Origin: Paenibacillus sp. FSL M7-0420
GTDB taxonomy: Bacteria; Bacillota; Bacilli; Paenibacillales; Paenibacillaceae
NCBI RefSeq assembly: GCF_038002345.1
Contig: NZ_JBBOCJ010000001.1
Coordinates: 2,542,001 to 2,606,000, forward strand
Length of the DNA stretch: 64,000 nucleotides
Direction: 5' to 3'
The notes under the pieces are model-generated. The model did not search any database, was not told the origin of the DNA, and worked only from the letters and a program-made list of their open reading frames with translations. The translations under genes were made by a program, and so were the position numbers. This document shows positions 9,231-61,000 of the stretch, one piece after another (position 1 is the first letter of the stretch; each line of letters opens with the position of its first letter).

Positions 9231-9675
9231 AAATGTAATCGAAAAACCGACTACAATTGGACGGAGGAGGCGCGTAAGCCAAATGTAATCGAAAAACCGA
9301 TCACATTACGCAGCGCGGAGGCGCGCGGGCCAAATGTAATCGAAAAACCGATCACAATGCGCAGCGCGGAGGCGAGCGGGCCAAATGTAATCGAAAAACC
9401 GATCACATCTGGCAGTGCGGAGGCGAGCGGGCCAAATGTAATCGAAAAACCAATTACATTGCGCAGCGCGATAGCGAGCGGGCCGAATGTAATCGAAAAA
9501 CCGATCACAATGCGCAGCGCGGGGGCGAGCGGACCGAATGTAATCGAAAAACCGATCACATTACGCAGCGCGGAGGCGCGCGGGCCGAATGTAATCGAAA
9601 AACCGATCACATTTGGCAGCGCGGAGGCGAGCGGGCCGAATGTAATCGGAAAACCGATCACATTTGGCAGTGGCG
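9231..9675. repeat. 51-bp-period tandem array 1 (nine units with hairpin core)
   Basis: The core TGTAATCG starts at 9234, 9284, 9335, 9386, 9437, 9488, 9539, 9590 and 9641. All spacings are 51 bp except the first (50). Each unit has arms TGTAATCG and CGATCACA around AAAAAC, followed by a GC-rich spacer of the type GCAGCGCGGAGGCGAGCGGGCC. The inverted repeat is imperfect by one base; the change leaves a G-U pair in minus-strand RNA. The units lack stop codons, so long open frames with 17-residue repeats appear on both strands. I regard these as by-products of the period. The array is intergenic, with no unique spacers. Confidence 0.95.
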
Positions 9676-9710
9676 TAGGTGCGGGCGGGTGCGCAAGGGG
9701 CGAGCCTAAT

Positions 9711-9851
9711 GGTGAGGTGCACAAGTGCTCCCGAATCCGCCGAAAGCGAGCTCCAGCGTGAATGAGGCGCACAAGTGCATCAGAATCCGCCGAAAGCAGG
9801 CACTCAGCGCCAATAAGATGCACAAGTGCACCTGAATCCACTGAATAATAC
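9711..9851. repeat. 51-bp-period tandem array 1b (three units, unrelated sequence)
   Basis: A second repeat type follows array 1 directly. ACAAGTGC recurs at 9721, 9771 and 9822 (spacings 50 and 51). Each unit holds the short inverted repeat GCAC-AA-GTGC and then GAATCCGCCGAAAGC, which decays in the third unit. The sequence shares nothing obvious with array 1 except the period. The remaining bases to 9980 show no gene. Confidence 0.8.
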
Positions 9852-9987
9852 CGCGTCCGCAAAGCAGCCAGAAGCCGAACCCCCGCAGGCACCACGCCCC
9901 CACTCACAACGGCAATTCCGCTGCCGCTTTGCAAGCAAGCGTTTTCTTTTTATGAATTTTCAGGGGGGAAGACCTATATTCTATGAA

Positions 9988-10015
9988 TTGTAAGCGCATT
10001 CTGAAAACGTATAAT
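9988..10015 (+). promoter_or_regulatory. Promoter with overlapping cre (CcpA) site for transporter module A
   Basis: A -35 box TTGTAA (9988-9993) and a -10 box TATAAT (10010-10015) are separated by 16 bp. The 15-mer TTGTAAGCGCATTCT at 9988-10002 matches the Bacillus cre consensus WTGNAANCGNWNNCW at every fixed position and covers the -35 box. CcpA binding there would block the promoter, giving catabolite repression. The binding protein gene starts 65 bp after the -10 box. Confidence 0.72.
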
Positions 10016-10079
10016 TAAAGTTGTCACCAGGAGAAATTAGAAGCATAAGCGATTAGCCAAAAAGGGGAGGCATAACAAC

Positions 10080-11762
10080 ATGCACAAAACGGCAAAACGT
10101 TCAGCAGCAGCCGCTGCGGCCGGTGTATTAGCACTCACACTGGCACTGACAGGCTGTGGATCAAGCAATAATACCAGCAGCACAGGTACCAAGGATACCG
10201 CCACTGGAGGAAACGCCAGCCCGGCAGCAGCCGGAGACGACACGGCTCCGGTAACGTTCTCGGTATTCATGAACGGTCCCGGACAACAGCCAACGCCTGA
10301 CAATAAGATTCTGAAGCTGATTAAGGACGAGACTGGAATCAGCTTCAACCAGGAATTCCTGGTCGGCGATCTGCAGCAGAAGCTGGGTGTCATGATTGCC
10401 GGAGGCGACTACCCGGACATCCTGTCGGGTGACGACAAATTAATCAACGCCAAGGCGTACATTCCGCTTGAGGATCTGATTGAGAAATACGCTCCCAACC
10501 TGAAGAAGCATTATGGTGCGGTCTGGAACCAGATCAAGGATGAGAGTGACGGACATATCTATGTACTGCCAAGCTATGGCGTCTATCAAGGTAAAATTAC
10601 CGAGCCTACTTATCAGGGACCAGGCTTCTGGCTGCAAAAAGGTGTGCTTGAGGAAATGGGCTACCCTACTCCCAAGACCCTGGATGAGTATTTCGATATC
10701 ATTGCCAAATATAAAGAAAAACACCCGGACATGATCGGGTTCGAATCACTCAACTTTGACTGGCGCGTGTTCCCGCTGCAGAATCCCCCAGAGCATCTGT
10801 CGGGGCATCCGAATGACGGGGCCGTTATTGTAGATAACAATGTAGCACAGATTTTTGCCGACAAGGATATCTCCAAGACCTATTACAAAAAGCTTAATGA
10901 GATTAACGCTCAAGGCTTGATGGATAAAGAAGCCTTCGTCCAGAACTATGACCAGTATCTGGCCAAAGTAGCAAGCGGTAAGGTCATCGGGATGTTCGAC
11001 CAGCACTGGAACTTCCAGGACGGCGAGAAATCTCTGATCTCCCAAGGCAAGCTGGAAAATACGTATATCGGCTTCCCTCTGCTCTATCCGGGCGCAGAAG
11101 AATGGTATCGTGACCGCGGAGCGGTCGGTACCAACCGCGGATTCGGAATTTCGATCAATGCCAAGGACCCTGTCCGCATTATCAAATTCTGGGATAAGAT
11201 GATTACCGAGGATTGGCAGAAGACGCTTCAATGGGGCGTGAAAGGCGAAGATTATGAAGTGAACGCAGACGGCTCCTTCTACCGTACACCTGAGCAACGG
11301 GCCAATGCAGATCAGACCAGCTGGCAGGTTGCTAACAAAATCTCAGGGATGTTCGGTTACATGCCTAAGATTCAAGGTACGTACAGCGACGGTAACGCAG
11401 CAGATGCCGGTACACAGCCTCAGGAATTCTTCGACAGCCTGAAGCCTTACGACCAGAAGATTCTGAAGGCGTACAACAAGAAATCATGGTCCGAATTCTT
11501 CAAGGAACCAAAAGAAAACAATATCTACTTCCCTGCGTATTCCATCGTGCTTAAGGATGGTTCACCTGCACAGCTCGCACAGTCCAAACTGAATGACCTC
11601 ATGATTAAGTATTTGCCGAAAGCCATTATGGCCAGCCCTGCTGAGTTCGACGGCGTGTGGCAGGATTATGTGGACAGAATCCACAAGCTGGACATCAAGG
11701 CCTATGAAGACCGGATGAATGAAGGCATTCAGCAGCGTATCGAAAAATGGAGCGTTAAATAA
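10080..11762 (+). CDS. Extracellular sugar-binding lipoprotein of an LplA-type ABC importer (module A)
   Basis: A 560-residue substrate-binding protein. The signal peptide ends in the lipobox LTGC at about residue 24, followed by a Ser/Thr/Gly-rich linker. The mature part has LKLIKDETGISF and VMIAGGDYPDIL, both typical of the LplA/YtcQ group. These capture oligosaccharides outside the membrane for paired LplB/YtcP permeases. AGGGGAGG lies 9 nt before the ATG. Two permease genes follow after a stem-loop. The GH10/GH43 genes downstream suggest a xylo-oligosaccharide or aldouronate ligand (inference). It is more diverged from the module B and C binding proteins than those two are from each other. 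Confidence 0.93.
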   Translation: MHKTAKRSAAAAAAGVLALTLALTGCGSSNNTSSTGTKDTATGGNASPAAAGDDTAPVTFSVFMNGPGQQPTPDNKILKLIKDETGISFNQEFLVGDLQQKLGVMIAGGDYPDILSGDDKLINAKAYIPLEDLIEKYAPNLKKHYGAVWNQIKDESDGHIYVLPSYGVYQGKITEPTYQGPGFWLQKGVLEEMGYPTPKTLDEYFDIIAKYKEKHPDMIGFESLNFDWRVFPLQNPPEHLSGHPNDGAVIVDNNVAQIFADKDISKTYYKKLNEINAQGLMDKEAFVQNYDQYLAKVASGKVIGMFDQHWNFQDGEKSLISQGKLENTYIGFPLLYPGAEEWYRDRGAVGTNRGFGISINAKDPVRIIKFWDKMITEDWQKTLQWGVKGEDYEVNADGSFYRTPEQRANADQTSWQVANKISGMFGYMPKIQGTYSDGNAADAGTQPQEFFDSLKPYDQKILKAYNKKSWSEFFKEPKENNIYFPAYSIVLKDGSPAQLAQSKLNDLMIKYLPKAIMASPAEFDGVWQDYVDRIHKLDIKAYEDRMNEGIQQRIEKWSVK

Positions 11763-11782
11763 ACCATTCAATACAGAAGTAG

Positions 11783-11811
11783 GAGCGGGAAATGCTGTTT
11801 CCCGCTCTTCC
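11783..11811 (+). terminator. Stem-loop between binding protein and permease genes (module A)
   Basis: A 10-bp perfect stem (GAGCGGGAAA at 11783-11792 with TTTCCCGCTC at 11798-11807), a 5-nt loop and then TTCCTAAA. It sits 20 bp after the binding protein stop codon. It could be a partial terminator or an mRNA 3'-end stabiliser that makes the binding protein more abundant than the permeases. Confidence 0.7.
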
Positions 11812-11873
11812 TAAATAGGACTGCGTGAATAGGACAACGTGGAGAGAATGATTTTTACAGGAGGGAATACAAC

Positions 11874-12860
11874 ATGTCTGATGCCGTACTGGACAAACAG
11901 GTCAAAAAACAGAAGACCCGAAAAAGCAAAATCGATCCGGAAATCGGTGTGGAACTCAGCTGGAAAACACTGAAAACACAGAAACAGCTTATTTTTATGT
12001 CCGTGCCCATTGCACTCTATCTGATAATCTTCAACTATGTTCCCATCTGGGGCTGGCTTATGGCCTTTCAGAATTACCGCCCGGCGGTGTCCTTCGGCCA
12101 GCAGGAATGGGTAGGCTTGCAGCAGTTCAAGTTTTTATTCTCTGATGATACCTTTATGCTGGTGCTTCGCAATACCATTGCGATGAGTTTTATCAACCTT
12201 GTACTGGGTACGGTTACGGCTATCGGTTTGGCTCTGCTGCTGAATGAGATCAAGCTCAAGTTCTTCAAGCGCGCGGTTCAGTCGATTTCTTATTTGCCGC
12301 ACTTTCTGTCCATGGTTATCGCTGCGGGGATTGTGTCCACTTCACTCTCCATCGATGGCGGGATTGTCAATGTCGTTCTAATGAAGCTTCACCTGATTAA
12401 AGATCCGATTATGTGGCTGAGTGAAGGGAAATACTTCTGGGGCATTATCGGGGCATCGAACGTGTGGAAAGAGGTGGGCTGGGGGACGATTATCTATCTG
12501 GCTGCTATTACCTCCATCGATCCTTCCCTGTACGAGGCAGCTTCCATTGACGGCGCGAAACGTTTTCAAAAGATGCGTTATATCACGCTTCCGGGAATTA
12601 AGGCTACATTCGTTATTTTGCTGATTATGAACATTGGACATATTCTCGATGCCGGCTTCGAGCTTCAATATCTGCTGGGCAACGGACTTACGGTGGACTA
12701 TTCGCAAACCATTGATATCTTTGTAGTGAAGTATGGTCTGGCTATGGGGAACTACTCGCTGGCTACGGCGGCAGGGATCTTCAAAACGATTGTCAGTGTC
12801 ATTCTCGTATTCATCGCAAACAATGTCGCAAAACGCCTCGGCGAAGAGCGATTACTATAG
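11874..12860 (+). CDS. ABC sugar importer permease, LplB type (module A)
   Basis: A 328-residue inner-membrane permease, first of the pair. A cytoplasmic Lys-rich N-terminus is followed by six predicted membrane segments, the first around VPIALYLIIFNYVPIWGW. The EAA loop that docks on the ATPase reads EAASIDGAKRFQKMRYITLPG. AGGAGGG precedes the ATG. It is followed 14 bp later by its partner permease. No ATPase gene is linked. Confidence 0.94.
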   Translation: MSDAVLDKQVKKQKTRKSKIDPEIGVELSWKTLKTQKQLIFMSVPIALYLIIFNYVPIWGWLMAFQNYRPAVSFGQQEWVGLQQFKFLFSDDTFMLVLRNTIAMSFINLVLGTVTAIGLALLLNEIKLKFFKRAVQSISYLPHFLSMVIAAGIVSTSLSIDGGIVNVVLMKLHLIKDPIMWLSEGKYFWGIIGASNVWKEVGWGTIIYLAAITSIDPSLYEAASIDGAKRFQKMRYITLPGIKATFVILLIMNIGHILDAGFELQYLLGNGLTVDYSQTIDIFVVKYGLAMGNYSLATAAGIFKTIVSVILVFIANNVAKRLGEERLL

Positions 12861-12874
12861 AGGAGGAAGCCCAT

Positions 12875-13786
12875 ATGAAAGCCGGGACCAAAGGTTCAAG
12901 CCGGATTGAGCCGGTTGTATTTCATACATTCAACACGATATTTATGCTCTTTGTGGTTACTGTCACGCTCTATCCGTTCCTCCAGACGCTGGCGGTATCT
13001 TTCAATGACGGCAGTGACACGCTTACCGGGGGAATCTACCTCTGGCCCCGTGTATGGACGCTGGAGAATTACCGGGCGGTCTTTATATCAGGAACGATCT
13101 ATCATGCCGCATTTATCTCGGTCTCCCGTACGATTATCTCAACGGTGCTCGGTGTATTCCTTACAACAATGCTCGCTTATGCACTGGCGCAGCCGCAATA
13201 TATTTTCCGCAAAAAGATCGGCCTGCTGTTCATCCTGACCATGTACTTCAACGCCGGGCTGATTCCGAACTACTTCCTGATCAAGAATATGGGCCTGCTG
13301 CATAACTTCATGGTCTATATCCTGCCGAGTCTGGTGAGTGCGTTCAACCTGATTATCATGCGGACGTATATCCGCGGGCTTCCGTTCAGCCTTACCGAAT
13401 CGGCGAAGATTGACGGGGCGGGAGAATTCAGGATTTTCTGGAAAATCATCTTCCCGCTCTGTACGCCTGTACTGGCAACTGTCGCACTGTTCATTGCGGT
13501 AGGCTCATGGAATTCCTGGTTTGACACATTCCTGTATGCCTCCTCGGATATCAAGCTCAGCACGCTGCAATACGAAATGATGAAGATGCTCGGCTCCATT
13601 ATGAGTGCGAACAATGATCCGTCGATGCTGGCGGGAGGCCAGAACAATCAGGTCCAGTCGCTGGTTACGCCAGCCTCCATGCGTTCAGCCATTACGATCG
13701 TTACAGCAGTTCCGATTCTGTTCGTCTACCCTTTCTTGCAGAAGTATTTCGTGGTAGGATTGAACCTGGGTAGCGTAAAAGAGTAA
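12875..13786 (+). CDS. ABC sugar importer permease, YtcP/AraQ type (module A)
   Basis: A 303-residue second permease. Hydrophobic segments begin at FNTIFMLFVVTVTLYPF, and the EAA-type loop is ESAKIDGAGEFRIFWKIIFP. The C-terminus IPILFVYPFLQKYFVVGLNLGSVKE is typical of the YtcP/LplC group. GAGGAGG lies before the ATG, and the gene follows its partner after 14 bp. A terminator-like hairpin at 13826 separates it from the regulator genes. Confidence 0.94.
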   Translation: MKAGTKGSSRIEPVVFHTFNTIFMLFVVTVTLYPFLQTLAVSFNDGSDTLTGGIYLWPRVWTLENYRAVFISGTIYHAAFISVSRTIISTVLGVFLTTMLAYALAQPQYIFRKKIGLLFILTMYFNAGLIPNYFLIKNMGLLHNFMVYILPSLVSAFNLIIMRTYIRGLPFSLTESAKIDGAGEFRIFWKIIFPLCTPVLATVALFIAVGSWNSWFDTFLYASSDIKLSTLQYEMMKMLGSIMSANNDPSMLAGGQNNQVQSLVTPASMRSAITIVTAVPILFVYPFLQKYFVVGLNLGSVKE

Positions 13787-13825
13787 TTGTCACTACGTAT
13801 TATATAAGGAAAATATGTATACTAT

Positions 13826-13857
13826 AACCGTTTCGGGTACAGCCGAAGCGGTTTCTC
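13826..13857 (+). terminator. Stem-loop after module A permeases
   Basis: An 11-bp stem (AACCGTTTCGG at 13826-13836 with CCGAAGCGGTT at 13843-13853, one G-U pair) with a 6-nt loop and only a short T run (TTTC). It lies inside the region an upstream ORF start (13815) would use, which argues for the later response regulator start at 13917. Confidence 0.6.
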
Positions 13858-13916
13858 CTGTTCCATCACGGGGAGTCCTGCCGGGCTCCAACTACTTATA
13901 TAAAGATGGTGATTCC

Positions 13917-15449
13917 ATGCTTAAGGTACTGTTTGCCGACGATGAGCCGATTATGCTGGAGGGGCTGCGCTTTCTGGTCGACTGGAAGGCACTCAACTAT
14001 GAAGTATGCGGCGAGGCGCTGGACGGGGAGGATGCGCTGCAGCTGATTCACAACACCCGTCCTGATCTGGTCATCACCGATGTGCGCATGCCGGTCATTG
14101 ACGGCCTTGAGCTCATTCGAAGAGCCTCTGAAGGCGATTGCCGTCCGAAGTTTATTATTTTTAGCGGCTATGCTGACTTTGAGTATGCCAAGCGGGCTCT
14201 GAAATACGGAGTCTCCAACTATTTGACCAAGCCTCTGGATGAAAAGGAGCTGACGGAGGCGCTCCATACAGTAACCGAACAGATTCTTAAAGAACACAAG
14301 GCCTCCTCGCGGCGTGACGCGCTCTCGGCTCTGATGCAGGAGGATACGGTATCCCGGCTCCTGATGCGGGAGAATTCGCAGGAGGAGCAGGAGAAGGGCC
14401 TGAATATGCTGGGGATCGGCCCTGCCTTCCGGCTATGCTGTGTCCTGGTCCATGGAGCCGCGCCGGACAGCCTGCAAATGCGTAAGCAGGTCGCCGCCAT
14501 GAGCGGCAAGGAGCCGCTGCGCGGCATTTCAGTCTATCCGTTCACCGCAGGCAGCGGGAAGCACGGGTATCTGCTGGTGTCACCCCAGGAAGGGCCGGGG
14601 CTTGACCGGACACTGCTTACCCGGTGGATGGAGGAGATGCGGCCGCTGTACACCACGCCGGTCTTTTTCGCGGCAAGTCTCCAGCATCAGGGCAAGGAGG
14701 CTCTGAATACGGCATACCGTGAGGCGCTGGCTGCTGAGCTGTGCAGGCACGATACCACGGGCGGCGAGGCCGCCGGCTTCTTCGAGAAGCAGGATAAGAC
14801 GCAGATGGCCATGCTTCCGGCAGAGCTGAGACGTTCGCTGCTGCAATCTGTCACCGAAGGGAAGGCTGAACATCTTACTGCGCAGCTTGGCGAGGTGTTC
14901 AAGATTTTCTCGGCGGAGGTGGCTTCGAGCTCCTGGATCGATGCTTTTCTGGCCAATATCAAAGCAGAGCTGCTACGTGAAATTACCGCCAGAGGGGGAG
15001 ACTATGCACAGTGGGTGCAGAAATGGTTCCCGTCACGGCATACGGCCAATTGTCTGCCGCTGCTTGAGCGTCAGATCGAGGAGGAGCTGTGTGAGGCTGC
15101 CGAGTGGTTCGCAGCGGCTGCGGACGGCAGGGCGGAGGATCAGATCGTGGCCGCAGCGATCGAGTATGTCCGCGGGCATTATCAGGAGAAGCTGAAGCTG
15201 CAGGATATTGCGAAGCATCTGCATGTGAATTCCGCCTACCTGGGGCAACGGTTCAAGAAACACTACGGCAGCTCTTTTAACGACTATCTTCATGAATTCC
15301 GCATTGAAGAAGCCAAGAAGCTGCTGCGCCGGACCGATATGGGGATTTCCGATATCTCAAGCAGAGTGGGCTATTCAGACGCTGATGTGTTCGCCGCCAA
15401 GTTCAAGGCGCTTAACGGAGTTACACCTTCCGTGTACAAGAAGAGTTGA
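13917..15449 (+). CDS. YesN-type response regulator with AraC-like DNA-binding domain (module A, first)
   Basis: A 510-residue regulator. The receiver domain (residues 1-120) has the acidic pair in FADDEP, the phospho-acceptor D55 in LVITDVRMP and K105 in YLTKPLD. The central region is unassigned. The C-terminal AraC helix-turn-helix pair (about 410-510) includes LQDIAKHLHVNSAYLGQRFKK and ISDISSRVGYSDADVFAAKF. It should be phosphorylated by the kinase at 15474 and act on the transporter and hydrolase genes. The start is ATG 13917, with only a weak GGTGAT ribosome site; the in-frame ATG at 13815 precedes a terminator-like hairpin. Confidence 0.9.
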   Translation: MLKVLFADDEPIMLEGLRFLVDWKALNYEVCGEALDGEDALQLIHNTRPDLVITDVRMPVIDGLELIRRASEGDCRPKFIIFSGYADFEYAKRALKYGVSNYLTKPLDEKELTEALHTVTEQILKEHKASSRRDALSALMQEDTVSRLLMRENSQEEQEKGLNMLGIGPAFRLCCVLVHGAAPDSLQMRKQVAAMSGKEPLRGISVYPFTAGSGKHGYLLVSPQEGPGLDRTLLTRWMEEMRPLYTTPVFFAASLQHQGKEALNTAYREALAAELCRHDTTGGEAAGFFEKQDKTQMAMLPAELRRSLLQSVTEGKAEHLTAQLGEVFKIFSAEVASSSWIDAFLANIKAELLREITARGGDYAQWVQKWFPSRHTANCLPLLERQIEEELCEAAEWFAAAADGRAEDQIVAAAIEYVRGHYQEKLKLQDIAKHLHVNSAYLGQRFKKHYGSSFNDYLHEFRIEEAKKLLRRTDMGISDISSRVGYSDADVFAAKFKALNGVTPSVYKKS

Positions 15450-15473
15450 TTCAGGAGGAAGGAGGGGGCGTGC

Positions 15474-18795: not shown

Positions 18796-18838
18796 GGTAT
18801 CCATTTATTTATTAGGGTCCAAGTCTTTACTATGGTGA

Positions 18839-18866
18839 TGGAAAACGCATACAAATGCGTTATGAT
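18839..18866 (+). promoter_or_regulatory. Promoter/operator region of the GH10 xylanase gene
   Basis: The inverted repeat AACGCAT-ACAA-ATGCGTT (18844-18861) directly abuts a -10-like TATGAT (18861-18866). The 15-mer TGGAAAACGCATACA (18839-18853) matches the cre consensus with one mismatch, so CcpA control is possible. No clear -35 box is seen. Confidence 0.45.
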
Positions 18867-18913
18867 AGAGAGAGTTGTCCAAAAATGTTATCAACTACAG
18901 GAGGTTAGCAAAG

Positions 18914-19933: not shown

Positions 19934-19977
19934 TACTATCTGAAGCTGGACATCTTACTAAATCTGGAGGGAATCAT

Positions 19978-23954: not shown

Positions 23955-25937
23955 ATGTTTCGTGAAGAGAATGGCAGACTGATCAGAGAATATGACCATG
24001 AGAGAGTCTGGATAGAGCCTTGGGGAGAGCATTCGCTGCGTATCCGGGCTTCGTATGCGGAGATTACCGATGAGCAGTGGGCGCTTCTGCCTGCTGTGCA
24101 GACGCTGAGTCATATATCGATTACCCCAGAGCGTGCGAGCATTATGAACGGGAATATCCGGGCGGAAATAACGGACAAGGGTCAGATCTTCTTCTATAAC
24201 CAGCACGGCAAGCTGCTCCTTAACGAGACGGAGGATACGTATCAGTTAAAATATGGCGGGAGAGAACTGGCGGCGGTTCCGGGGAGCAGTGATTTCTCCG
24301 TGAAGCTCCGGCTGGAGGCGGACCCGCAAGAGAAGCTGTACGGCATGGGGCAATACCAGCATTCTTTTCTGAATCTGAAGGGCTGCTCGCTGGAGCTGAC
24401 GCACCGCAACAGCCAGATCAGCATTCCGTTCGTGCTGTCCAGCGCTGGTTACGGGTTCCTGTGGCATAATCCGGCGATCGGACAGGCGCATTTCAGCCTG
24501 AATGTGACCGAATGGACAGCCCCGTCGACCAAGCAGCTGGATTATTGGATCACCGCCGGTGACTCGCCTGCCGAGATCGAGGAGGCTTATGCCAAGGCTA
24601 CGGGAACTGTGCCGATGATGCCGGAGTATGGTATGGGGTTCTGGCAATGCAAGCTCCGCTACCGTACGCAGGAGGAATTGCTGGATGTGGCGAGGGAGCA
24701 TAAACGGCGCGGGCTGCCAATCGACGTCATCGTCATTGATTTCTTCCACTGGACGAATCAGGGGGACTGGCGGTTTGACCCGGAATATTGGCCCGATCCT
24801 GAGGCGATGGTGCAGGAGCTGCAGGAGCTGGGCATTGAGCTGATGGTCTCGGTCTGGCCGACTGTCCAGACGGAGAGCGAGAATTATAAGGAGATGCTGG
24901 AAAAAGGATACCTGCTGCGCTCAGACCGCGGCGTGCGGACGCAATTCCAGTTCCTCGGCCAGAACGCCATCTTCGATGCGACGAATCCGGAGGCCCGCAA
25001 GTTCCTGTGGGGACTGATTAAGCAGAATTATTATGATAAAGGAATCAAGGTCTTCTGGCTCGATGAGGCGGAGCCGGAGCTGACGGTCTATGACCATGAT
25101 ATCTATCGTTATCATATCGGCTCCAGCAAGCAGATCGGCAATATCTACCCCATGAAATACAGCCAGACCTTCTATGACGGTATGGCGGCTGAAGGCCAGG
25201 AGAATATTATCAATCTGGTCCGTACCGCCTGGGCGGGCAGCCAGCGCTACGGGGCGCTCGTATGGTCCGGAGATATTCACTCCAGCTTCAAGGTGCTCAG
25301 CATCCAGGTGCGGGCCGGACTGAATATGGCCGTGGCCGGGATTCCATGGTGGACCACCGATATCGGCGGCTTCCACGGCGGTAATTCGGCAGACGCTTCC
25401 TTCCGGGAGCTGATGGTCCGCTGGTTCCAGTACGGCGCGTTCTCTCCGGTGTTCAGGCTGCACGGGGACCGTTCCCCTTTTGTTCAGCCCACCGGAACGC
25501 GGGGCGGGGGCGTATGCGGAAGCGGCTCGGATAATGAAGTGTGGAGCTACGGGGATGAGGCGTATGTCATCTTCAAGGAGTTCATGCAGATGCGGGAGCG
25601 GCTGAAGCCGTATATCCGCGGGCTGATGCAGGCGGCACATGAGAAGGGCACGCCGCCTATGCGTCCATTGTTCTATGATTTCCCACAGGACCCGGCGGCC
25701 TGGGATATCGAGGACCAGTATATGTTCGGTCCCGATCTGCTGGTTGCCCCGGTGCTGGGCGAGGGTGAACGGGCTCGCAACGTGTACCTGCCGTCCGGCT
25801 CAGAGTGGACCCATGTCTATACCGGCACTGCCTATGCCGGCGGACAGGCTATTACGGTCGATGCGCCGCTTACGCAGATTCCGCTGTTTGTGCGGGACGG
25901 TGCCGTGCTGCCGGTGCTTGGCGGGGCGGAGGAGTAA
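23955..25937 (+). CDS. GH31 alpha-xylosidase-like glycosidase
   Basis: A 660-residue GH31 enzyme, shorter than the one at 525 and not its close paralogue. The nucleophile is D370 in KVFWLDEAEPE and the acid/base D440 in VWSGDI. PWWTTDIGGFHGG and FRLHGDR follow. The FWLDEAEPE context resembles alpha-xylosidases that remove xylose from xyloglucan oligosaccharides or isoprimeverose, though alpha-glucosidase activity cannot be excluded. No signal peptide is present. GGAGGG lies before ATG 23955. The gene stands alone between a divergent AraC regulator and a large hairpin at 25974. Confidence 0.9.
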   Translation: MFREENGRLIREYDHERVWIEPWGEHSLRIRASYAEITDEQWALLPAVQTLSHISITPERASIMNGNIRAEITDKGQIFFYNQHGKLLLNETEDTYQLKYGGRELAAVPGSSDFSVKLRLEADPQEKLYGMGQYQHSFLNLKGCSLELTHRNSQISIPFVLSSAGYGFLWHNPAIGQAHFSLNVTEWTAPSTKQLDYWITAGDSPAEIEEAYAKATGTVPMMPEYGMGFWQCKLRYRTQEELLDVAREHKRRGLPIDVIVIDFFHWTNQGDWRFDPEYWPDPEAMVQELQELGIELMVSVWPTVQTESENYKEMLEKGYLLRSDRGVRTQFQFLGQNAIFDATNPEARKFLWGLIKQNYYDKGIKVFWLDEAEPELTVYDHDIYRYHIGSSKQIGNIYPMKYSQTFYDGMAAEGQENIINLVRTAWAGSQRYGALVWSGDIHSSFKVLSIQVRAGLNMAVAGIPWWTTDIGGFHGGNSADASFRELMVRWFQYGAFSPVFRLHGDRSPFVQPTGTRGGGVCGSGSDNEVWSYGDEAYVIFKEFMQMRERLKPYIRGLMQAAHEKGTPPMRPLFYDFPQDPAAWDIEDQYMFGPDLLVAPVLGEGERARNVYLPSGSEWTHVYTGTAYAGGQAITVDAPLTQIPLFVRDGAVLPVLGGAEE

Positions 25938-25973: not shown

Positions 25974-26014
25974 CAGAGCAGCGATTCTCCTGATAGTGGA
26001 GGGTCGCTGCTCTG
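25974..26014. terminator. Large 17-bp stem-loop between convergent genes
   Basis: CAGAGCAGCGA (25974-25984) pairs perfectly with TCGCTGCTCTG (26004-26014). The inner TTCTCC/GGAGGG pairs with G-U wobbles, giving a stem of about 17 bp and a 7-nt loop. On the minus strand it is followed by a T-rich TTTAATTTATT; on the plus strand there is no T run. It separates GH31 from the convergent AraC gene and abuts repeat array 2. Confidence 0.65.
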
Positions 26015-26024
26015 CTATGTGGAC

Positions 26025-26414
26025 CAAATGTATGCTAAAAACCGAACACATTGGGCCGGCGTGGGGCGTGAGAGCGGAATGTAATCGGAAAACCGATTAC
26101 ATTTGGCTAGGCGGAGGCGCGAGGATGGAATGTAATCGAAAAACCGATTACATTTGGCTAGGCGGAGGCGCGAGGATGGAATGTAGTCGAAAAACCGATT
26201 ACATTTGGTTTGGCGGAGGCGCGAGGATGGAATGTAGTCGAAAAACCGATTACATTTGGCGTGGCAGAGGCGCGAGGATGGAATGTAATCGAAAAACCGA
26301 TTACATTTGGCGTGGCAGAGGCGCGAGGATGGAATGTAGTCGAAAAACCGATTACATTGGGCGTGGCAGAGGCGCGAGGATGGAATGTAATCGAAAAACC
26401 GATTACATTGGGCG
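26025..26414. repeat. 51-bp-period tandem array 2 (seven units plus one degenerate)
   Basis: The core TGTAATCG/TGTAGTCG starts at 26080, 26131, 26182, 26233, 26284, 26335 and 26386, exactly 51 bp apart. A degenerate copy at 26029 keeps the phase. Arms TGTAATCG and CGATTACA around AAAAAC form a perfect 8-bp inverted repeat; the three TGTAGTCG units keep a G-U pair in plus-strand RNA. The spacer GGCGGAGGCGCGAGGATGGAA differs from array 1, while the core is shared. Open reading frames through the array (17-residue repeats in three frames) look like by-products. The rest of the gap from 25938 to 26534 shows no gene. Confidence 0.95.
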
Positions 26415-26534
26415 GCGGCGAGAGAGTGTCCATAGTTGGAGCAACGATGTATTCACATTTCCACATACCCTTTGCCATACTCCTAACTAACTCCCACCTT
26501 AGCCTCATCTAACTCCGACCCTATTACACTCCCG

Positions 26535-50136: not shown

Positions 50137-50328
50137 ACGCCCACAAGCTTCGCAGATTGATAATTCCTCATCAATGGATGATGTTCCCAGGATAGAATGA
50201 TGCAAATTCAAGTTAGTATTAGCATAGAACGGAACTCGCGTATACAGAGCCTGGAGCCTGCGGCATTCTGCAGGATGACCTGTGGAGGCTCTCAAGCAAT
50301 CATACTGTTTAGTGGGGGGATACTCATT

Positions 50329-51624: not shown

Positions 51625-51683
51625 AGCACAAGTTGCCGTGCACCATGTTACTTATATCCAACGGAATTCACCTGGGGAGGAAA

Positions 51684-52798: not shown

Positions 52799-52892
52799 GC
52801 GCAAGCTAACAGATTGTTATGATTGTTCTCTGCCTATAAAAGAAGTGTTAGTTCCTCTTATAATAGAAGCAGAGTACAATTATGAGAGTCGA

Positions 52893-53798: not shown

Positions 53799-53874
53799 AT
53801 ACAAGCGGGACTGTCCAATGTAGAAGCGTCTATCCTTCATATATATTTTTCCGAAACAGCTTCCTCAGCAGGAT

Positions 53875-53923
53875 TTCACACTTAGTTTATCGAATAAACA
53901 AAGTGTGAAGATATACATATAAT
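53875..53923 (+). promoter_or_regulatory. Operator-like 35-bp inverted repeat and -10 box before the esterase gene
   Basis: TTCACACTTAGTTTAT (53875-53890) and ATAAACAAAGTGTGAA (53894-53909) are 16-nt arms with one mismatch around CGA. A TATAAT (53918-53923) lies 8 bp downstream, so the repeat covers the -35 position. The inner part, TTAGTTT with AAACAAA, resembles the ROK-type XylR operator of Bacillus (TTAGTTTGTT half-sites). That resemblance is inference. No xylR gene is seen in the window. Confidence 0.65.
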
Positions 53924-53938
53924 CTATGAGAGGAATGA

Positions 53939-54727
<789 letters not shown>

Positions 54728-54738
54728 ATGGTGTAGAG

Positions 54739-54763
54739 GGCGTCCTGAGCGGGCGCCTTTTAT
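54739..54763 (+). terminator. Rho-independent terminator after the esterase gene
   Basis: GGCGTCC (54739-54745) pairs with GGGCGCC (54751-54757, one G-U), with a 5-nt loop and a TTTTATT tail. Confidence 0.78.
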
Positions 54764-54887
54764 TCTGGCTGGAAGTTGCCGCTGTATGCCGGGTAATCCT
54801 TAGAAGTCCAAATGTTCACCGCAGTGACGATAATGCTTCCAGTTTTAATTAGTAGTGCGTCAGTGTGTCTTACATTCACTGAAGCGC

Positions 54888-54934
54888 AAAAAAGGCAGCC
54901 CCAAGCCATATCTATGGCTCGGGGGCTGCCTTTT
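54888..54934 (-). terminator. Bidirectional terminator at the end of the minus-strand importer operon
   Basis: AAAAGGCAGCCCC (54890-54902) pairs with GGGGGCTGCCTTTT (54921-54934), and an inner AGCCATA/TATGGCT extends the stem. On the minus strand it is followed by a run of six T. It lies 30 bp beyond the binding protein stop. Confidence 0.88.
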
Positions 54935-54964
54935 CTATCATCTCCGCGCTTTGCAGGTCACCGC

Positions 54965-56761
54965 TTATTTATTAGCAATCGCATCGGCGCGCATTTTAAC
55001 GATTTTGTCTGCTCTTTCCTTGTCTACGGCGAAGACATCGTTCCAGCCGAGTCCTTCGACATCGCTCTTCAGCTTGGTCCAGAGCTGGTCGAATTCGGCC
55101 TGGTCCTTGGCGAAGATCATTTTCCAGGAGGTGTTCTTGACATAATCCGAGATCTGGCTGCGTTTGTTCTTAACGTCAGAGGAATCGGAGCCAAGACTGG
55201 TGTTGATGTTCGGTACGATGTCAATCATGTTGTTCTTCGTATAATACTCAGTCGGAGTAGTGGCGTCATAGGTTTTCTGCCAATCTGTAGTCAGCGCAGT
55301 CTTGTTGGCTTCGATGGTGGACGCCCAGTAGGTGCTGTTGTAGAACTCTTTGGTTTCCGGGTCGGTCACGAAATCACTCATAATCATCGAGTTGACCTTG
55401 CTCTGGCCATCCTGGTAACCGCCGCCGCCGTATTCAGCAGGCACAGGAGTATTTTCCTGGAATGCAGTCTGACCAACTTCGGTCAGCTTGAATTTGCCGT
55501 CCGGTGTTTTTTCATAGTTGAAGCCTTCGAAGCCGTTGGTATAGTAACGCAGGCCTTCCGGAGAGGACATCCAGTCCATCAGTTCCATGATTCTTTCCGG
55601 TTCTTTCGCTTTGGAGCCGATGGCGAACACTCTGCCGTTCCCGAAGTAAGCATCACTGTTCTGGATCAGGTGGGTATCGCCGATCGGAACGGCTACGTTG
55701 CCGTCACCCTGGTTGCCGCGTTCAATCGTGTTGTAGAAGCCTCTCTGCCAGGAGTACCACAGGAGCAGCACCTGCTTGTTGGTCAGCTTCTCAGATACCT
55801 TGTTCCAGTCCTGGGAAGGGGAATCCGGGTCGACGAGACCCATTTTGTTAGCGTCATAATAGAACTGCAGAATCTTCTTGTACATGCTGTTGTCGTCAAC
55901 GATCGGCACGATGTCACCTTTGGCATTCAATTGAATTGTTGTTGTGCCGTTCGGCTGCTCATAGCCATACCAGTTGCTCAGCCACCGGACATTCTCCATG
56001 CTGCCGCCATCCCAGTCCTTCCACAGCGTAATCGGAACAATCGGCTTACCGTCCGGAGTCTTCGGATATTTAGCCTGCATATCCTTCAGGGCGGTCATCA
56101 GGTCGTTCAGATTATTCAGCTTCGGCGCGCCGATTCCCTTGTAATAATCCCAAGGCATAATCGGGCTGGAGTAAGGCAGCTCTTCTGAGAAAGTCGTTGG
56201 CGAGGTGTCGGCGGTGAAGGCCGGGAGAGCATAGATTTTACCATCCGGGTTCTGCTTCTCGAAGGCCACATTGAACGGCTTAAAGTGATTGTCTACATAT
56301 TGGGACAGATGCTCCGTGTTCTTAATCATGTCGGTTAAATCCATAATCATGCCTGCCGGAATCAGTTCCTCAAGCTGGCTGTTCTCAATAATCAGGAGGT
56401 CGCCGAGGTCACCGGATGCAGAGCGGGTCTTGTACAGCTGGTCGCCCGCTACCTGCGGAGCCAGAATGTTCAGTGTGATATTGAATTTGTCTTTCAGCAG
56501 CTTGCCGTACCATCCCGTCTGCTCGCCTTGATAGTTAGCTGCGTTGTCGAATACCGTAATGGTTAGAGGTTTGCTGTGATCGATGCCTGTGCTTGTGCCC
56601 GGATCGGATGACTCAGTAGGTGTTCCGGGTTCGGCCGTCCCCGCAGCAGCTCCTCCATTGTTGGAATTACCGCTGCAACCACTTAACGCCGTTGTTACCA
56701 GCAGGATGGTCGTCCCTAGTAACAGCGCGGACTTTCTGCCCAGCTTAATGTGTGTTTTCAT
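54965..56761 (-). CDS. Extracellular sugar-binding lipoprotein (fourth importer)
   Basis: A 598-residue binding lipoprotein. The signal peptide MKTHIKLGRKSALLLG is followed by TALSGC as lipobox. The mature part starts LTITVFDNAANYQGEQTGW, with GDLGDLLIIENSQLEELIPAG and YALPAFTADTSP. It is only distantly like the three module proteins, so a different ligand is likely. GGGGGG lies 7 nt before the ATG. It is the last gene of a permease-permease-binding protein operon, the reverse order of modules A to C. No regulator or hydrolase gene is directly attached. Confidence 0.92.
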   Translation of the reverse strand: MKTHIKLGRKSALLLGTTILLVTTALSGCSGNSNNGGAAAGTAEPGTPTESSDPGTSTGIDHSKPLTITVFDNAANYQGEQTGWYGKLLKDKFNITLNILAPQVAGDQLYKTRSASGDLGDLLIIENSQLEELIPAGMIMDLTDMIKNTEHLSQYVDNHFKPFNVAFEKQNPDGKIYALPAFTADTSPTTFSEELPYSSPIMPWDYYKGIGAPKLNNLNDLMTALKDMQAKYPKTPDGKPIVPITLWKDWDGGSMENVRWLSNWYGYEQPNGTTTIQLNAKGDIVPIVDDNSMYKKILQFYYDANKMGLVDPDSPSQDWNKVSEKLTNKQVLLLWYSWQRGFYNTIERGNQGDGNVAVPIGDTHLIQNSDAYFGNGRVFAIGSKAKEPERIMELMDWMSSPEGLRYYTNGFEGFNYEKTPDGKFKLTEVGQTAFQENTPVPAEYGGGGYQDGQSKVNSMIMSDFVTDPETKEFYNSTYWASTIEANKTALTTDWQKTYDATTPTEYYTKNNMIDIVPNINTSLGSDSSDVKNKRSQISDYVKNTSWKMIFAKDQAEFDQLWTKLKSDVEGLGWNDVFAVDKERADKIVKMRADAIANK

Positions 56762-56807
56762 GTGTAGCCCCCCGAATGATTAATGTATCATAAATGGCGC
56801 TGTCGGA

Positions 56808-57773
56808 TTAGCCCTTGACGGCACCAATTATAATTCCTTTGACAAAAAATCTCTGGAAGATCGGATATACCAGCAGGATCGGTGCGACTACGATAATGGT
56901 TACAGTCATGCGGATGGAGGTCGAGGTCTGCTTGGTCGCCAGAGTAGCCATCGCCGTGGATCCGGCATTCTGCAGGTTGACCATGGTGGACAAGGAGCTC
57001 GCCTGGTTGATGTAGTTATACAGAATGAACTGCAGGCTGTAGAGCTTGCTGTCCGTCACCAGCAGGAGCGTATCTTGGAAGGAGTTCCACTGGTTGACTG
57101 CCGAGAAAATGGCAACGGTTGCAAGGATCGGCTTGCTGATCGGCAGAATGACTTTGTAGAAAATCGTGAAGATTCCTGCACCGTCAATGCTGGCCGCCTG
57201 CTGAAGCTCCTTCGGTGTTGCCTCCACGAAGGTTTTGACCAGGATAATGAAGAAAGGAGCAACAACGGACGGAAGAATATAAGCCAGGAAGTTGTCCGTC
57301 AGATGCAGCGATCTCATGGTCAGATACCAGGGGATGATCCCGGCGTTGAAGAACATTGTGATGATGGTGAAGCGGTACCAGAATTTCTTGCCCCACATAT
57401 CCTCCTGAGCGAACATGAATCCGAGGAAGGCCGAAGCGCCGACCGTCAGTAACGTACCGATCACGGTTCTGCCGAGGGAAATCATGAACGCATTGCCCAG
57501 ACCCGGGATTTTGAATACATCGACATAGTTCTGGAAATGAATCCCCTTAGGCCAGAAAATAATTTCGCCTTTAGCGCTTAGGTCGTTCGCGCTGATCGTA
57601 TTGATAATGATCGAGTAGAACGGGTAAACGCAGATGAAGGCGAACAGTGAGAACAGGATATAGATAATAGTAGAGATGATTTTATCGGTAGCGCTGACCT
57701 GCATTTTGACCGTTTTTTTGGTGATGTCGATCTCCCGGGTGTTTGGCGTAAGACTGGTCTGGTTGTCACTCAT
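56808..57773 (-). CDS. ABC sugar importer permease, YtcP/AraQ type (fourth importer)
   Basis: A 321-residue permease. Membrane segments begin at IISTIIYILFSLFAFICVYPF; the EAA-like loop is QAASIDGAGIFTIFYKVILP. The C-terminus is APILLVYPIFQRFFVKGIIIGAVKG. AGGAGAGGG precedes the ATG, which overlaps the TGA of the upstream permease (ATGA), so the two are coupled. The binding protein gene follows after 46 bp, without the hairpin found in the other modules. Confidence 0.94.
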   Translation of the reverse strand: MSDNQTSLTPNTREIDITKKTVKMQVSATDKIISTIIYILFSLFAFICVYPFYSIIINTISANDLSAKGEIIFWPKGIHFQNYVDVFKIPGLGNAFMISLGRTVIGTLLTVGASAFLGFMFAQEDMWGKKFWYRFTIITMFFNAGIIPWYLTMRSLHLTDNFLAYILPSVVAPFFIILVKTFVEATPKELQQAASIDGAGIFTIFYKVILPISKPILATVAIFSAVNQWNSFQDTLLLVTDSKLYSLQFILYNYINQASSLSTMVNLQNAGSTAMATLATKQTSTSIRMTVTIIVVAPILLVYPIFQRFFVKGIIIGAVKG

Positions 57774-58684
57774 ACAATGCCCTCTCCTCTCAGCATTTTG
57801 GACAGCCCGTTCACCGAAAAGAGAAGCACCACGCTGATTACACTCTTCAGCATACTGATCGCAACGGAGACGGAATAGCTGCCGCCGCCCATGGCGAGGT
57901 TATACACATATAGATCAAGAACCTGAATAGTGTCCTTGTTAAACGCATTTTGGAAGACGAAATATTGCTCCAATCCGTTATTCAGGAAGCTTGCAATCTG
58001 GAGCATCAGGAGGACGAAGTAGGTTGGCATCATGCTTGGCAATACGACATGGCGGATCACCTGCATCCGGGTAGCCCCATCCACATAAGCCGCTTCATAC
58101 AGCGATTCGTCGATGCCCATGATGGCCGCGATGTACAGAATGGCAGACCAGCCGAGTGTCTTCCAGGTAGCCCAGGCCCACATGGTCCACCAGACATGCT
58201 CTGAGCTCTGCAGGAACATTGTAGGTGAATCGGTCAGCCCGGTCATATGCAGGAAGCCGTTGACCATCCCCTCACTGGAGAACATGGAGAAGGCGAGGGA
58301 GTACACCAGCACCCAACTGATAAAGTTCGGCAGCGTGGTGACCGTCTGGATGAATTTGCGGAAACGTACCGCCTTGATCTCGGTCAGGAAGATGGCGAAG
58401 ATCATCGGGAGCCAGGAAAAGAGGATACCCAGTCCGCTGATGCCGAAGGTATTCCAGATGACCTGCATCAGCTGATCGATCTTGACCTGATTCTCAACCA
58501 GGGAATGGAACCATTTGAAGCCGACAAACTCGGATTGTGACAATGGGATAGGCGGGGTGTAGTCAAAAAATGCATATACCCATCCATAGAGCGGATAGTA
58601 CGCAAAGACAGCGAGTAAAAGCATAAAGGGAGAGATGTACAGGAATTTCCGGAACGAATTGCTTCTCATGCACTGGCTGCGCAT
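57770..58684 (-). CDS. ABC sugar importer permease, LplB type (fourth importer)
   Basis: A permease of about 304 residues. The first segment is FLYISPFMLLLAVFAYYPLYGW, and the EAA loop is EAAYVDGATRMQVIRHVVLPS. Several in-frame ATGs are possible. The one at 58684 has GAGGAG 7 nt upstream; the longest (58774) has its G-rich site almost touching the ATG, and 58702 has only a weak site. It is the first gene of the minus-strand operon. Its promoter and an exact cre site lie about 135-190 bp upstream. Confidence 0.92.
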   Translation of the reverse strand: MRSQCMRSNSFRKFLYISPFMLLLAVFAYYPLYGWVYAFFDYTPPIPLSQSEFVGFKWFHSLVENQVKIDQLMQVIWNTFGISGLGILFSWLPMIFAIFLTEIKAVRFRKFIQTVTTLPNFISWVLVYSLAFSMFSSEGMVNGFLHMTGLTDSPTMFLQSSEHVWWTMWAWATWKTLGWSAILYIAAIMGIDESLYEAAYVDGATRMQVIRHVVLPSMMPTYFVLLMLQIASFLNNGLEQYFVFQNAFNKDTIQVLDLYVYNLAMGGGSYSVSVAISMLKSVISVVLLFSVNGLSKMLRGEGIV

Positions 58685-58817
58685 TGTTTCACTCCTCATC
58701 ATATTCTCTTTGTATGATTGCTTCCTGAAGCTAAGCCGGGGCAAGCAATCCTGAGTAACTTGTCTGGCTGTCATCCCCCTTCATAATAAAAGCAATGAAA
58801 AGCAAATGTGGAGCAAT

Positions 58818-58832
58818 TGATAACGCTTTCAT
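58818..58832 (-). promoter_or_regulatory. Exact cre (CcpA) site downstream of the minus-strand importer promoter
   Basis: Read on the minus strand, ATGAAAGCGTTATCA fits WTGNAANCGNWNNCW at every fixed position. It begins about 10 bp beyond the -10 box at 58843-58848, a typical roadblock position. Confidence 0.68.
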
Positions 58833-58842
58833 GTATGAAACT

Positions 58843-58871
58843 ATAATAAGTTATCGTCTATCTTCCTACAA
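58843..58871 (-). promoter_or_regulatory. SigA-type promoter of the minus-strand importer operon
   Basis: On the minus strand, TTGTAG (58871-58866) and TATTAT (58848-58843) are separated by exactly 17 bp. It points to the LplB-type permease gene. The rest of 58685-59036 shows no gene. Confidence 0.6.
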
Positions 58872-59036
58872 TGACCGATCCTCACCAATTATTGATCTAT
58901 TGTCAGGTGAAGGAGACGCGGACGAGAAGGGAAAGTGCATGGGAGGGGGAGCGAGAGTTGCAAGGGACACGGATGAAACGGGAGTTTATAGGAGCGGGAA
59001 GAAAGGAATACGGGAGGCTAAACGGAAACCCAGAGA

Positions 59037-59311
59037 GTGATGAGGGGTATTAATACACCTGATTTTATCAAAAGAGGGCGGATGAGTCGAATGAAGGGTA
59101 TTAATACACCTGATTTTATCAAAAGCGGGCGGATGAGTCGAATGAGGGGTATGAATACACCTAATTTCATCAAAAGCGGGCGGATGGACCGAATGAGGGG
59201 TATTAATACACCTGATTTCAACAAAAGTGGGCGGATGGACCGAATGAGGGGTATTAATACACCTGATTTCAACAAAAGTGGGCGGATGAGCCGAATGAAG
59301 GGTATTAATAC
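59037..59311. repeat. 51-bp-period tandem array 3, left part (five units plus the left end of a sixth)
   Basis: TATTAATACACC-type cores (one is TATGAATACACC) start at 59048, 59099, 59150, 59201 and 59252, and the sixth at 59303 is cut by the insertion element; all spacings are 51 bp. The unit reads as the core, then TGATTTYAWCAAAAG, then GGGCGGATGRRYCGAATGA. GGTATTAATAC gives a short palindromic centre. Sequence similarity to arrays 1 and 2 is not evident. A 17-residue repeat frame (RMRGINTPDFNKSG) is a consequence of the period. Confidence 0.95.
59302..59311. repeat. Left target-site duplication of the IS4-family element
   Basis: GTATTAATAC directly abuts the left inverted repeat and recurs at 60953-60962. 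It is itself a perfect palindrome and is the centre of the sixth array-3 unit. A 10-bp duplication fits the 10-12 bp known for IS4-family elements. Confidence 0.88.
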
Positions 59312-59354
59312 CAATGTCATTAAGATAAGATATAGAGCCAAAAACAAGAAAAAG

Positions 59355-59389
59355 GCAGGTTATCGAAAAGATAGCCTGCTCTTTTTTTG
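59355..59389 (+). terminator. Terminator inside the left end of the insertion element
   Basis: GCAGGTTATC (59355-59364) pairs with GATAGCCTGC (59370-59379, one G-U pair), with loop GAAAA and tail TCTTTTTTTG. It lies upstream of the transposase start. Confidence 0.82.
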
Positions 59390-59460
59390 CACAAAAAAAT
59401 CTTGACAATCCGTAGAAAACGTGTGGCGAAGCCCCTTGAAAAAACGAGGAGGTTACGCCA

Positions 59461-60783
59461 ATGAATGCTTATGCAAATTCGCTGAAAGACAGACTGACAT
59501 CTCTCATCCGTGAGATGGCGGCTGCCCCCGCGCCTTACGTCAGAAACCCGGGAAAGGATTTTACCCGAACGAAAAAACTACCCTTTGAAATGGTTATGCA
59601 AACCCTGATCTTTATGGGCGGCAACAGCCTCTATAAGGAACTGTTGGAATCGCAGGGCTATGACGTTAACACCGCAACTTCTTCTGCTTTTGTTCAGCAA
59701 AGAAATAAAATTTTGCCGTCTGCGGTCGAATCTTTGTTTCACACCTTTACCGCGTCCCATACGGAATTCAAGGATTATCGAGGCTATCGATTATTGGCCA
59801 TTGACGGTTCCGATCTGCATATTGCAACAGATCCTGCGGACCCGTTGACCTATTCTCAAAGTCAGCCCCACTCGAAAGGCTTTAACCTTCTGCACTTGAA
59901 CGCTGCTTATGACCTCTGTAACCGGCTTTACGTGGACGCCATCCTTCAACCTCGAAAGCTGCGCAACGAAGGAAGGGCGCTGTCCACGATGGTGGATCGG
60001 TCCCCTATTCAGGGGAACGTCATTGTGTTGGCGGATCGAGGATTGGAAAGCTACAATACGTTCGCGCATCTGGAACGGAAAGGATGGAAGTACGTCATAC
60101 GGGTCAAGGATTTGCATTCGAATGGCATTCTTTCGGGCTTGCACTTGACCTTTGAAGGGGCGTTTGATCAGGAGATTCACCTGACGCTGACTAAAAAACG
60201 AACGAAAGCGTTCAGGGATCACCCCGAAATCTATAAAATTCTTCCGGCCACCTCTAGCTTTGATTTTCTGGACATGCAAAAGAACCTGTTTTACCCGATT
60301 TCCTTTCGGGTGGTTCGTTTCCTCCTGCCCAGTGGCGATTATGAAACCGTCATTACCAATCTACCGGCTGCTGAATTCTCACCGGATGAACTCCGGGAAC
60401 TGTATCACCTGCGATGGGGGATTGAGACCTCTTTCCGGGCCTTAAAATACACCATCGGTCTGACCCATTTTCACGCAAAGAAGCAAGAGTCCATTACCCA
60501 AGAGATATTCGCAAGAATGATCCTCTACAATTTCGCTGAAATGATTACCTCGCACGTAGTCATTTCCCAAAAGGATAAACGGCACCTCTACCAAGTCAAC
60601 TTCACGGTGGCCGTTCACGTCTGTAGACATTTCCTGCGCTCCAAGGGCGATGGACCCCCGCCTGATGTGGAAGCTTTGATTCGCAAAAATATGTTGCCGA
60701 TTCGTCTCACCCGTCCTGGGCAAAGGAATACACGCAGAATACGTAGCAAATCCGCCATTAGCTTCGTCTACAGAGTAGCATAA
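59461..60783 (+). CDS. IS4-family DDE transposase
   Basis: A 440-residue transposase. The catalytic triad is D115 (LLAIDGSDLH), D192 (VLADRGLE) and E322. The IS4 signature Y-(2)-R-(3)-E-(6)-K is exact: Y315, R318, E322 and K329 in YHLRWGIETSFRALK. GAGGAGG precedes ATG 59461, and TTGACA at 59402 may be a -35 box, though no good -10 is seen. The frame is intact and ends 169 bp before the right inverted repeat. Confidence 0.95.
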   Translation: MNAYANSLKDRLTSLIREMAAAPAPYVRNPGKDFTRTKKLPFEMVMQTLIFMGGNSLYKELLESQGYDVNTATSSAFVQQRNKILPSAVESLFHTFTASHTEFKDYRGYRLLAIDGSDLHIATDPADPLTYSQSQPHSKGFNLLHLNAAYDLCNRLYVDAILQPRKLRNEGRALSTMVDRSPIQGNVIVLADRGLESYNTFAHLERKGWKYVIRVKDLHSNGILSGLHLTFEGAFDQEIHLTLTKKRTKAFRDHPEIYKILPATSSFDFLDMQKNLFYPISFRVVRFLLPSGDYETVITNLPAAEFSPDELRELYHLRWGIETSFRALKYTIGLTHFHAKKQESITQEIFARMILYNFAEMITSHVVISQKDKRHLYQVNFTVAVHVCRHFLRSKGDGPPPDVEALIRKNMLPIRLTRPGQRNTRRIRSKSAISFVYRVA

Positions 60784-60952
60784 TTCGGTTCGCATGAACA
60801 TTTTTTTAAGTGGATCTTCCATCCGCTTTGTTTGCTATGCGCTTTTTTCCTTCCTTACACCAAAAACAAACGGCATAGGACGTTTCCCCATACCGTTTTG
60901 GATTCTCTTTATTAATTCCAAACTTATCTTTGAACTTATCTTAATGACATTG

Positions 60953-61000
60953 GTATTAATACACCTGATTTCGGAAGAAGTGGGCAGATGAGCGGGCAGG
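60953..61000. repeat. Array 3, right remnant with the right target-site duplication
   Basis: GTATTAATAC (60953-60962) is followed by ACCTGATTTCGGAAGAAGTG and GGCAGATGAGCGGGCAG, the rest of the interrupted sixth unit. No further unit follows. The bases up to 61061 hold no gene. Confidence 0.85.

Follow-up and report, generated by a model that had tools for sequence, protein, structure and literature searches.

The short tandem repeats of Paenibacillus sp. FSL M7-0420 that share a period of about 51 bp were found to run with the leading strand almost throughout the sampled genome: 61 of 62 repeat clusters had a leading-strand majority, and 350 of 357 units were leading (profile units in the sample). 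It is well supported that these arrays are members of the published class of 51-53-nt constant-length repeats of Firmicutes, and their replication polarity is, as far as the literature covered here extends, a new addition to that known class.

Repeat Arrays in the Window

The window is the whole 64,000-nucleotide stretch that was analyzed, positions 2,542,001-2,606,000 of the 7.66-Mb contig. A sequence-only reading of it had described four unrelated arrays with one 51-bp period. TRF confirmed this period in array 1 (9221-9664, 8.7 copies), array 3 (26037-26414, 7.4 copies) and array 4 (59040-59311, 5.3 copies), and gave 50/51 for array 2 (9713-9839, 2.5 copies). As also claimed, the arrays are intergenic and their units show inverted repeats; whole-unit identity within the three larger arrays was 87-92%. 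The arrays are, however, not unrelated, and only two families are present. According to TRF and profile matches, array 1 comprises nine family-A units with a 51-bp period in leading-strand orientation (9221-9682, plus strand), and array 3 comprises eight family-A units with the same period in a convergent gap (26027-26421, plus strand); both share the hairpin AATGTAATCG-AAAAAC-CGATTACATT and have related G-rich second halves. Array 2, with three family-B units, two whole and one partial, at a spacing of about 50-51 bp (9713-9845, plus strand), and array 4, with five family-B units and a partial one in leading-strand orientation (59040-59310, plus strand), were both matched by the single profile B.

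Directly before array 1, after the GH95 gene (6874-9120), stands a terminator-like hairpin with an 11-pair stem and a T-rich tail (9170-9195, plus strand; RNA fold -21.1 kcal/mol, z -5.4). Similarly, a strong hairpin stands directly before array 3, after the GH31 gene (23955-25937) (25974-26014, plus strand; RNA fold -32.9 kcal/mol, z -7.7); it is without a T-run, was not scored as an intrinsic terminator and was missed by the terminator scan. The fourth array, previously taken to extend over 59037-61000, proved to be an array of about 272 bp, an insertion sequence within it (59311-60953, plus strand; ends CCAATGTCATTAAGATAAG / CTTATCTTAATGACATTGG) and one leftover family-B unit beyond the insertion (about 60953-61000, plus strand; profile match 60953-60988). 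The insertion sequence carries a transposase (59461-60783; DDE_Tnp_1, PF01609, E 2.5e-28), is flanked on each side by the 8 bp TATTAATA, and interrupts a family-B unit at its palindrome; insertion sequences of this kind may preferentially target the repeat palindromes. Both chromosomal genes next to array 4 (57770-58774 and 61062-61832) are on the minus strand, so that the array is antisense to them yet leading.

As 51 equals 3 x 17, long spurious ORFs run through the arrays (9251-9934, minus strand; 9357-9761 and 25996-26490, plus strand), and automatic annotation may call them hypothetical proteins. An origin as cargo of mobile elements was rejected, since array 1 as a query had no match in plasmid or phage collections, from which records very near the window's genome were possibly left out.

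A Shared Period Across the Genome

The genome-wide sample consisted of 78 spaced 20-kb stretches, two aimed stretches and the window, in total 1.664 Mb of the 7.67-Mb genome, and yielded 139 merged arrays, 74 of them with a period of at least 20 and a score of at least 100. A period of 50-52 was found in 53 of these 74 arrays (42 of 51, 10 of 52, and 1 of 50), and in 47 of 68 when the window and the two aimed stretches were removed, while none of the 139 merged arrays of the 1.664-Mb sample had a period of 46-49 or 53-61. The broad spread of periods that would have made the coincidence in the window a matter of chance was therefore not observed; the shared period is real, genome-wide and far beyond chance. 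The earlier proposal of a length that is either under selection or fixed by a shared amplification mechanism survives this test and comes near the published view, although its premise of unrelated arrays was overstated, there being two families with a common architecture in the window. Coding repeats were rejected as a cause because 10 of the 53 arrays have a period of 52, and the open frames in 51-bp arrays come from 3 x 17. Separate from the 51-bp arrays, CRISPR-like arrays with a period of 66-69 and the repeat GTCGCACTCCGTATGGAGTGCGTGGATTGAAAT were observed at G000:C1:1059236-1070417 (locus L042).

Consensus units of the own genome (G000) fell into four families, namely A (TGTAATCG..CGATTACA), A2 (ATGTATGC..GCATACAT, often 52 bp), B (starting with AATGAGGAGCATTAGTGCACCTGA) and C (starting with ATGAAAGGGATAAATCCC). 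By profiles, neighbors of the same family were spaced by 51 bp in 214 cases, 52 bp in 55 and 50 bp in three, with spacings of 44, 47, 55, and 85 occurring once each. Among the 16 multi-family clusters, 12 had the order C-then-B, and ABC, AB, BCB, and AC were seen once each. C-to-B junctions measured 50-51 bp in 7 of 13 cases, the other six ranging from 32 to 142, and at single-unit ortholog sites the units were exactly 51 apart from A to B (G046) and from C to B (G008). Because of these junctions and ortholog sites, we conclude that the families often, not always, lie on one common 51-bp frame.

Replication Polarity

GC skew in the sampled stretches flips sign at 3.65-3.74 Mb and at 7.20-7.30 Mb, which we took as the terminus and the origin, respectively. 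The replichores were placed in this manner because a Firmicutes dif consensus, sought for the terminus, was matched in 0 of 9 genomes. The polarity persisted with the window and the aimed stretches removed (55 of 56 clusters leading), and a separate pattern scan gave 51 multi-unit or array clusters, of which 49 were purely leading and 2 mixed, together with 9 of 9 leading solos; scanning the reversed sequence with the pattern gave no match. The one reversed cluster (G000:C1:5669511-5669931, locus L090) contains seven reversed units and one leading unit at its edge, and at 5,669,511 it looks as after a local inversion. An array at 3.786 Mb is on the plus strand where the skew is already negative (6 places among the 100 listed of 402).

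All 11 single-unit clusters were leading as well, and single-unit clusters may be collapsed arrays. Since single units are as polar as arrays, orientation-dependent amplification alone is insufficient, and polarity from amplification only was set aside on this ground, with the limit that the 11 clusters are possibly such collapsed arrays. The polarity is compatible with an origin coupled to replication or with a polar function. It is the strongest property of the arrays and was beyond the reach of the sequence-only reading.

Gene Direction and Gap Preference

Genes were called with our own simple caller, and 58 of the 62 clusters were placeable, among 718 gaps. As to the position of arrays relative to genes, which the sequence-only reading had proposed to check, they stand behind gene ends, with convergent gaps the commonest location: arrays were present in 32 of the 145 convergent gaps, 22 of the 342 tandem-leading ones, a single one of the 66 tandem-lagging and 2 of the 165 divergent. 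Tandem-leading versus tandem-lagging occupancy taken alone was not significant (P 0.15).

The repeats might simply share the strand of their neighbors, as 75% of the called genes (1080 of 1445) are leading. Nevertheless, the cluster figure of 61 of 62 greatly exceeds 75%, and convergent gaps, in which half would be expected, had 32 of 32 clusters along the leading gene and 0 along the lagging gene. Gene direction is therefore an unlikely cause of the polarity, and as a full explanation we regard it as very improbable. The fork-first gene was leading in 54 of 57 occupied gaps, and the three clusters with a non-leading fork-first gene are still leading; window array 4 is among these three, scored as divergent because the inserted transposase was counted as the next gene.

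The preference for gaps with a leading fork-first gene is also expected from a transcription-based cause. Arrays could act at the RNA level as 3' extensions of leading-strand genes, yielding hairpin RNAs with a role in stability, processing or as a sponge, and Bacillus coagulans repeats are described as transcribed in the covered part of PMC8625621. Besides these two points, the stems of A-type hairpins speak for such a role: among 169 distinct hairpins, 1130 of 1521 stem cells were Watson-Crick, compared with a shuffle mean of 1038 (sd 9.5), and 0 of 300 shuffles reached 1130. However, covariation was clearly in excess at just 2 of the 9 pairs, where a small number of events among related sequences may account for it; convergent gaps hold clusters with the leading gene in 32 of 32 cases and none with the lagging gene; three leading clusters stand behind a non-leading gene; the terminator-like and strong hairpins precede arrays 1 and 3; and there was no Rfam match in the window at gathering score. 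An RNA-level role is consequently rather improbable. Wobble G.T cells numbered 87 on the forward and 103 on the reverse strand among the 1521, favoring neither strand clearly as the one that folds. In single-stranded DNA folding, one unit of type A and one from G026 were far better than shuffles on both strands, and the tested B and C units were no better than shuffles.

Occurrence and Polarity in Relatives

The families are specific to species or close relatives. Of 100 genomes in the genus, the own genome included, 21 contained A-type hairpins (at most 3 mismatches), with 0 in the reversed-pattern control, and the genome contigs that matched the exact 24-mer were those of P. piscarius and P. 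silagei only, the own record possibly being left out. G077 gave no match with a stricter A-type pattern. Among relatives with no A-type match, in 100 kb each, G017 gave one weak 2.1-copy row, G026 a strong 51-bp array, and G007 and G071 no 51-bp array.

Polarity in relatives was evaluated per cluster, among the clusters listed, by the best two-switch model (one switch as origin and one as terminus) and compared with 400 shuffles. The model fitted 49 of 51 listed clusters in G083 (0 of 400 shuffles), 18 of 19 in G046 (6 of 400), 28 of 29 in G067 (0 of 400), 29 of 34 listed A-type clusters in G086 (1 of 400), there by strand pattern alone, and 23 of 23 in G026 (0 of 400). Skew at sampled points agrees with the cluster strand in G083 and G046, and G067 becomes 27 of 29 by skew because a plus cluster at 1.01 Mb lies between two negative-skew points. 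The five discordant G086 clusters may reflect recent inversion or misassembly. In P. piscarius and P. silagei, the strand equaled the local skew in 33 of 36 loci (38 loci, two short ones left out).

G026, in which no A-type match occurs, carries a different hairpin, CAACGGCA..TGCCGTTG, in 576 copies that often follow each other at 51 bp, and all 100 places listed of the 576 fit the skew of five sampled points. The A-type and G026 families may be non-independent, because the type of G026 itself (period 50) sits behind the gene end of window array 1. Furthermore, the published B. coagulans/B. litoralis hairpin TGTCCTTCAT..ATGAAGGACA was present in 4 of 398 Bacilli genomes (G193, G235, G367, and G435), spanning four GTDB families of Bacilli and spaced by 51 or 52 bp in three of the four genomes. 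Its strand equaled the local skew in 9 of 12 loci from three genomes, and with these 12 loci only, the support for polarity outside the family is weak.

Long-Lived Sites and Turnover

Two of the window sites were surveyed in 14 relatives, read from TRF rows and by eye. At site 1, after the GH95 gene, at least one unit was present in 13 of 14 relatives, and at site 3, after the GH31 gene, in 10 of 11 full-length orthologs, with no or a partial match in 3 of the 14 genomes searched. Copy number, whose variation between strains had been suggested for checking, ranges at both orthologous sites from none or one to about 20 across species, and the unit type varies by species. Thus, both sites remain occupied from species to species, with turnover of copies and sequence. 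Because both studied sites are common to several species, much of the polarity may be inherited rather than remade.

Such long occupancy bears on the possibility that the arrays are polar binding sites, in which a dimeric protein would sit on each dyad, the 51-52 bp would serve its polymerization, and the assembly would work with the fork or a DNA translocase in nucleoid organization or segregation; selection would then keep length and direction. The inverted repeats and constant length are in accordance with this, as are the maintained sites (13 of 14 relatives and 10 of 11 orthologs), and a nucleoid protein is also proposed by the authors of PMC8161180 in the covered part of that paper. On the other hand, the dyad sequence varies by family and species, so that one protein must accept many sites, the candidate protein is hypothetical only, and some orthologous sites retain a single copy or no copy at all. 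We consider protein-binding arrays a real possibility, though an unlikely one.

Comparison With Known Systems

The earlier statement that the arrays match neither CRISPR nor REP/BIME nor known insertion elements stands for CRISPR and for typical REP/BIME but overlooks that constant-size repeats of 51-53 nt are published for Bacillus and Paenibacillus. Constant length with variable sequence has been reported for Firmicutes, with units of 51-53 nt "particularly abundant" in Paenibacillus (Subirana & Messeguer 2021, PMC8161180). As far as that paper was covered, its repeats share with ours the occurrence of multiple families in one genome, the shortness of the arrays, signature words with their reverse in one unit, and turnover between strains. 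For laboratory Bacillus subtilis, Table 4 of that paper gives 0 repeats of 51-53 nt. In contrast to the repeats as described there, those studied here show near-strict leading direction, a position behind gene ends, a lattice between families and the C-before-B order; the terms "orientation," "leading," "palindrom," and "intergenic" occur 0 times in the searched text of PMC8161180. No report on the strand direction of such repeats was found in the literature at abstract level; the J Bacteriol 2020 paper on this class may mention strand.

BOX elements of Streptococcus pneumoniae, according to the covered part of Croucher et al. 2011 (PMC3049150), are likewise modular and intergenic, with a repeated inner module, predicted stem-loops and over-representation in convergent gaps. 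However, 60.8% of BOX elements are on the leading strand, which mirrors gene bias, whereas here 61 of 62 clusters are leading versus 75% of genes. BOX also lacks a constant 51-bp unit across modules, and its boxA and boxC ends surround boxB, while clusters here consist of A units, of B units, or of C followed by B, with no fixed end modules, so that the two are set apart by cluster layout.

REP/BIME elements with their RAYT (TnpA-REP) transposases resemble the present repeats as short palindromic intergenic sequences in many copies. Unlike BIME copies, which alternate in orientation, the units here are head-to-tail, with 350 of 357 one way. CRISPR shares the regular spacing and a partly palindromic unit but has unique spacers; the window arrays are not CRISPR because the stretches separating the hairpins are nearly alike inside any one array, and many arrays occur per genome.

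Non-autonomous single-strand transposition, of the IS200/IS605 or RAYT-like kind, could fix direction by insertion into the lagging-strand template. Replication-directed insertion into that template is described for IS608 and ISDra2 in the covered part of PMC6006769, and the families are scattered over many sites. Y1_Tnp, with RAYT and IS200 pooled, was matched in 9 of 12 A-rich genomes and also in 9 of 15 genomes with few or no A-type matches, the A-rich genomes without a match being G077, G083, and G094. A Y1 transposase as a requirement is disfavored by its absence from these 3 of 12, and G083 is polar even so. In addition, no clean empty site was found, and transposition of this kind appears improbable.

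Possible Origin and Meaning of the Polarity

The class has been called enigmatic for conserving its length but not its sequence. A replication-coupled origin is favored here because length and direction are kept, and sequence and copy number are not. Specifically, we infer that the repeats are generated during replication on the lagging-strand template with a 51-nt step from a protein footprint, an explanation we put somewhat below an even chance. Units would be duplicated and lost on this template, the strand that exposes the written unit as single strand; the dyad on the exposed strand would fold or be bound, and a single-strand-binding or replisome protein with a footprint of fixed size might act as the ruler that sets the 51-nt step. 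Length and direction would then be kept as the sequence drifts, and selection would mainly purge arrays that disturb promoters. A spreading step is also needed because the same families stand at many sites, and none was found for the families. The tested B and C units that fold no better than shuffles, the exceptional clusters in G000 and G086, the sites shared across species and the preference for gaps with a leading fork-first gene also count against this explanation. More tentatively, the constant-length repeats as a class could be replication-polarized satellites, made and remade on the lagging-strand template by a step of constant 51-52-nt size that leaves the sequence free but not length or direction, a view that we hold to be possible but clearly short of probable.

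Near-strict fork-linked direction in more than one sequence family, which neighboring genes do not explain, narrows the cause to something that senses replication direction. The polarity is a simple test applicable to every Firmicute genome with such repeats, and the arrays could serve to mark fork direction and local inversions. If replication-coupled generation is true, the repeats would, independently of their sequence, record fork direction and a 51-nt replisome footprint.
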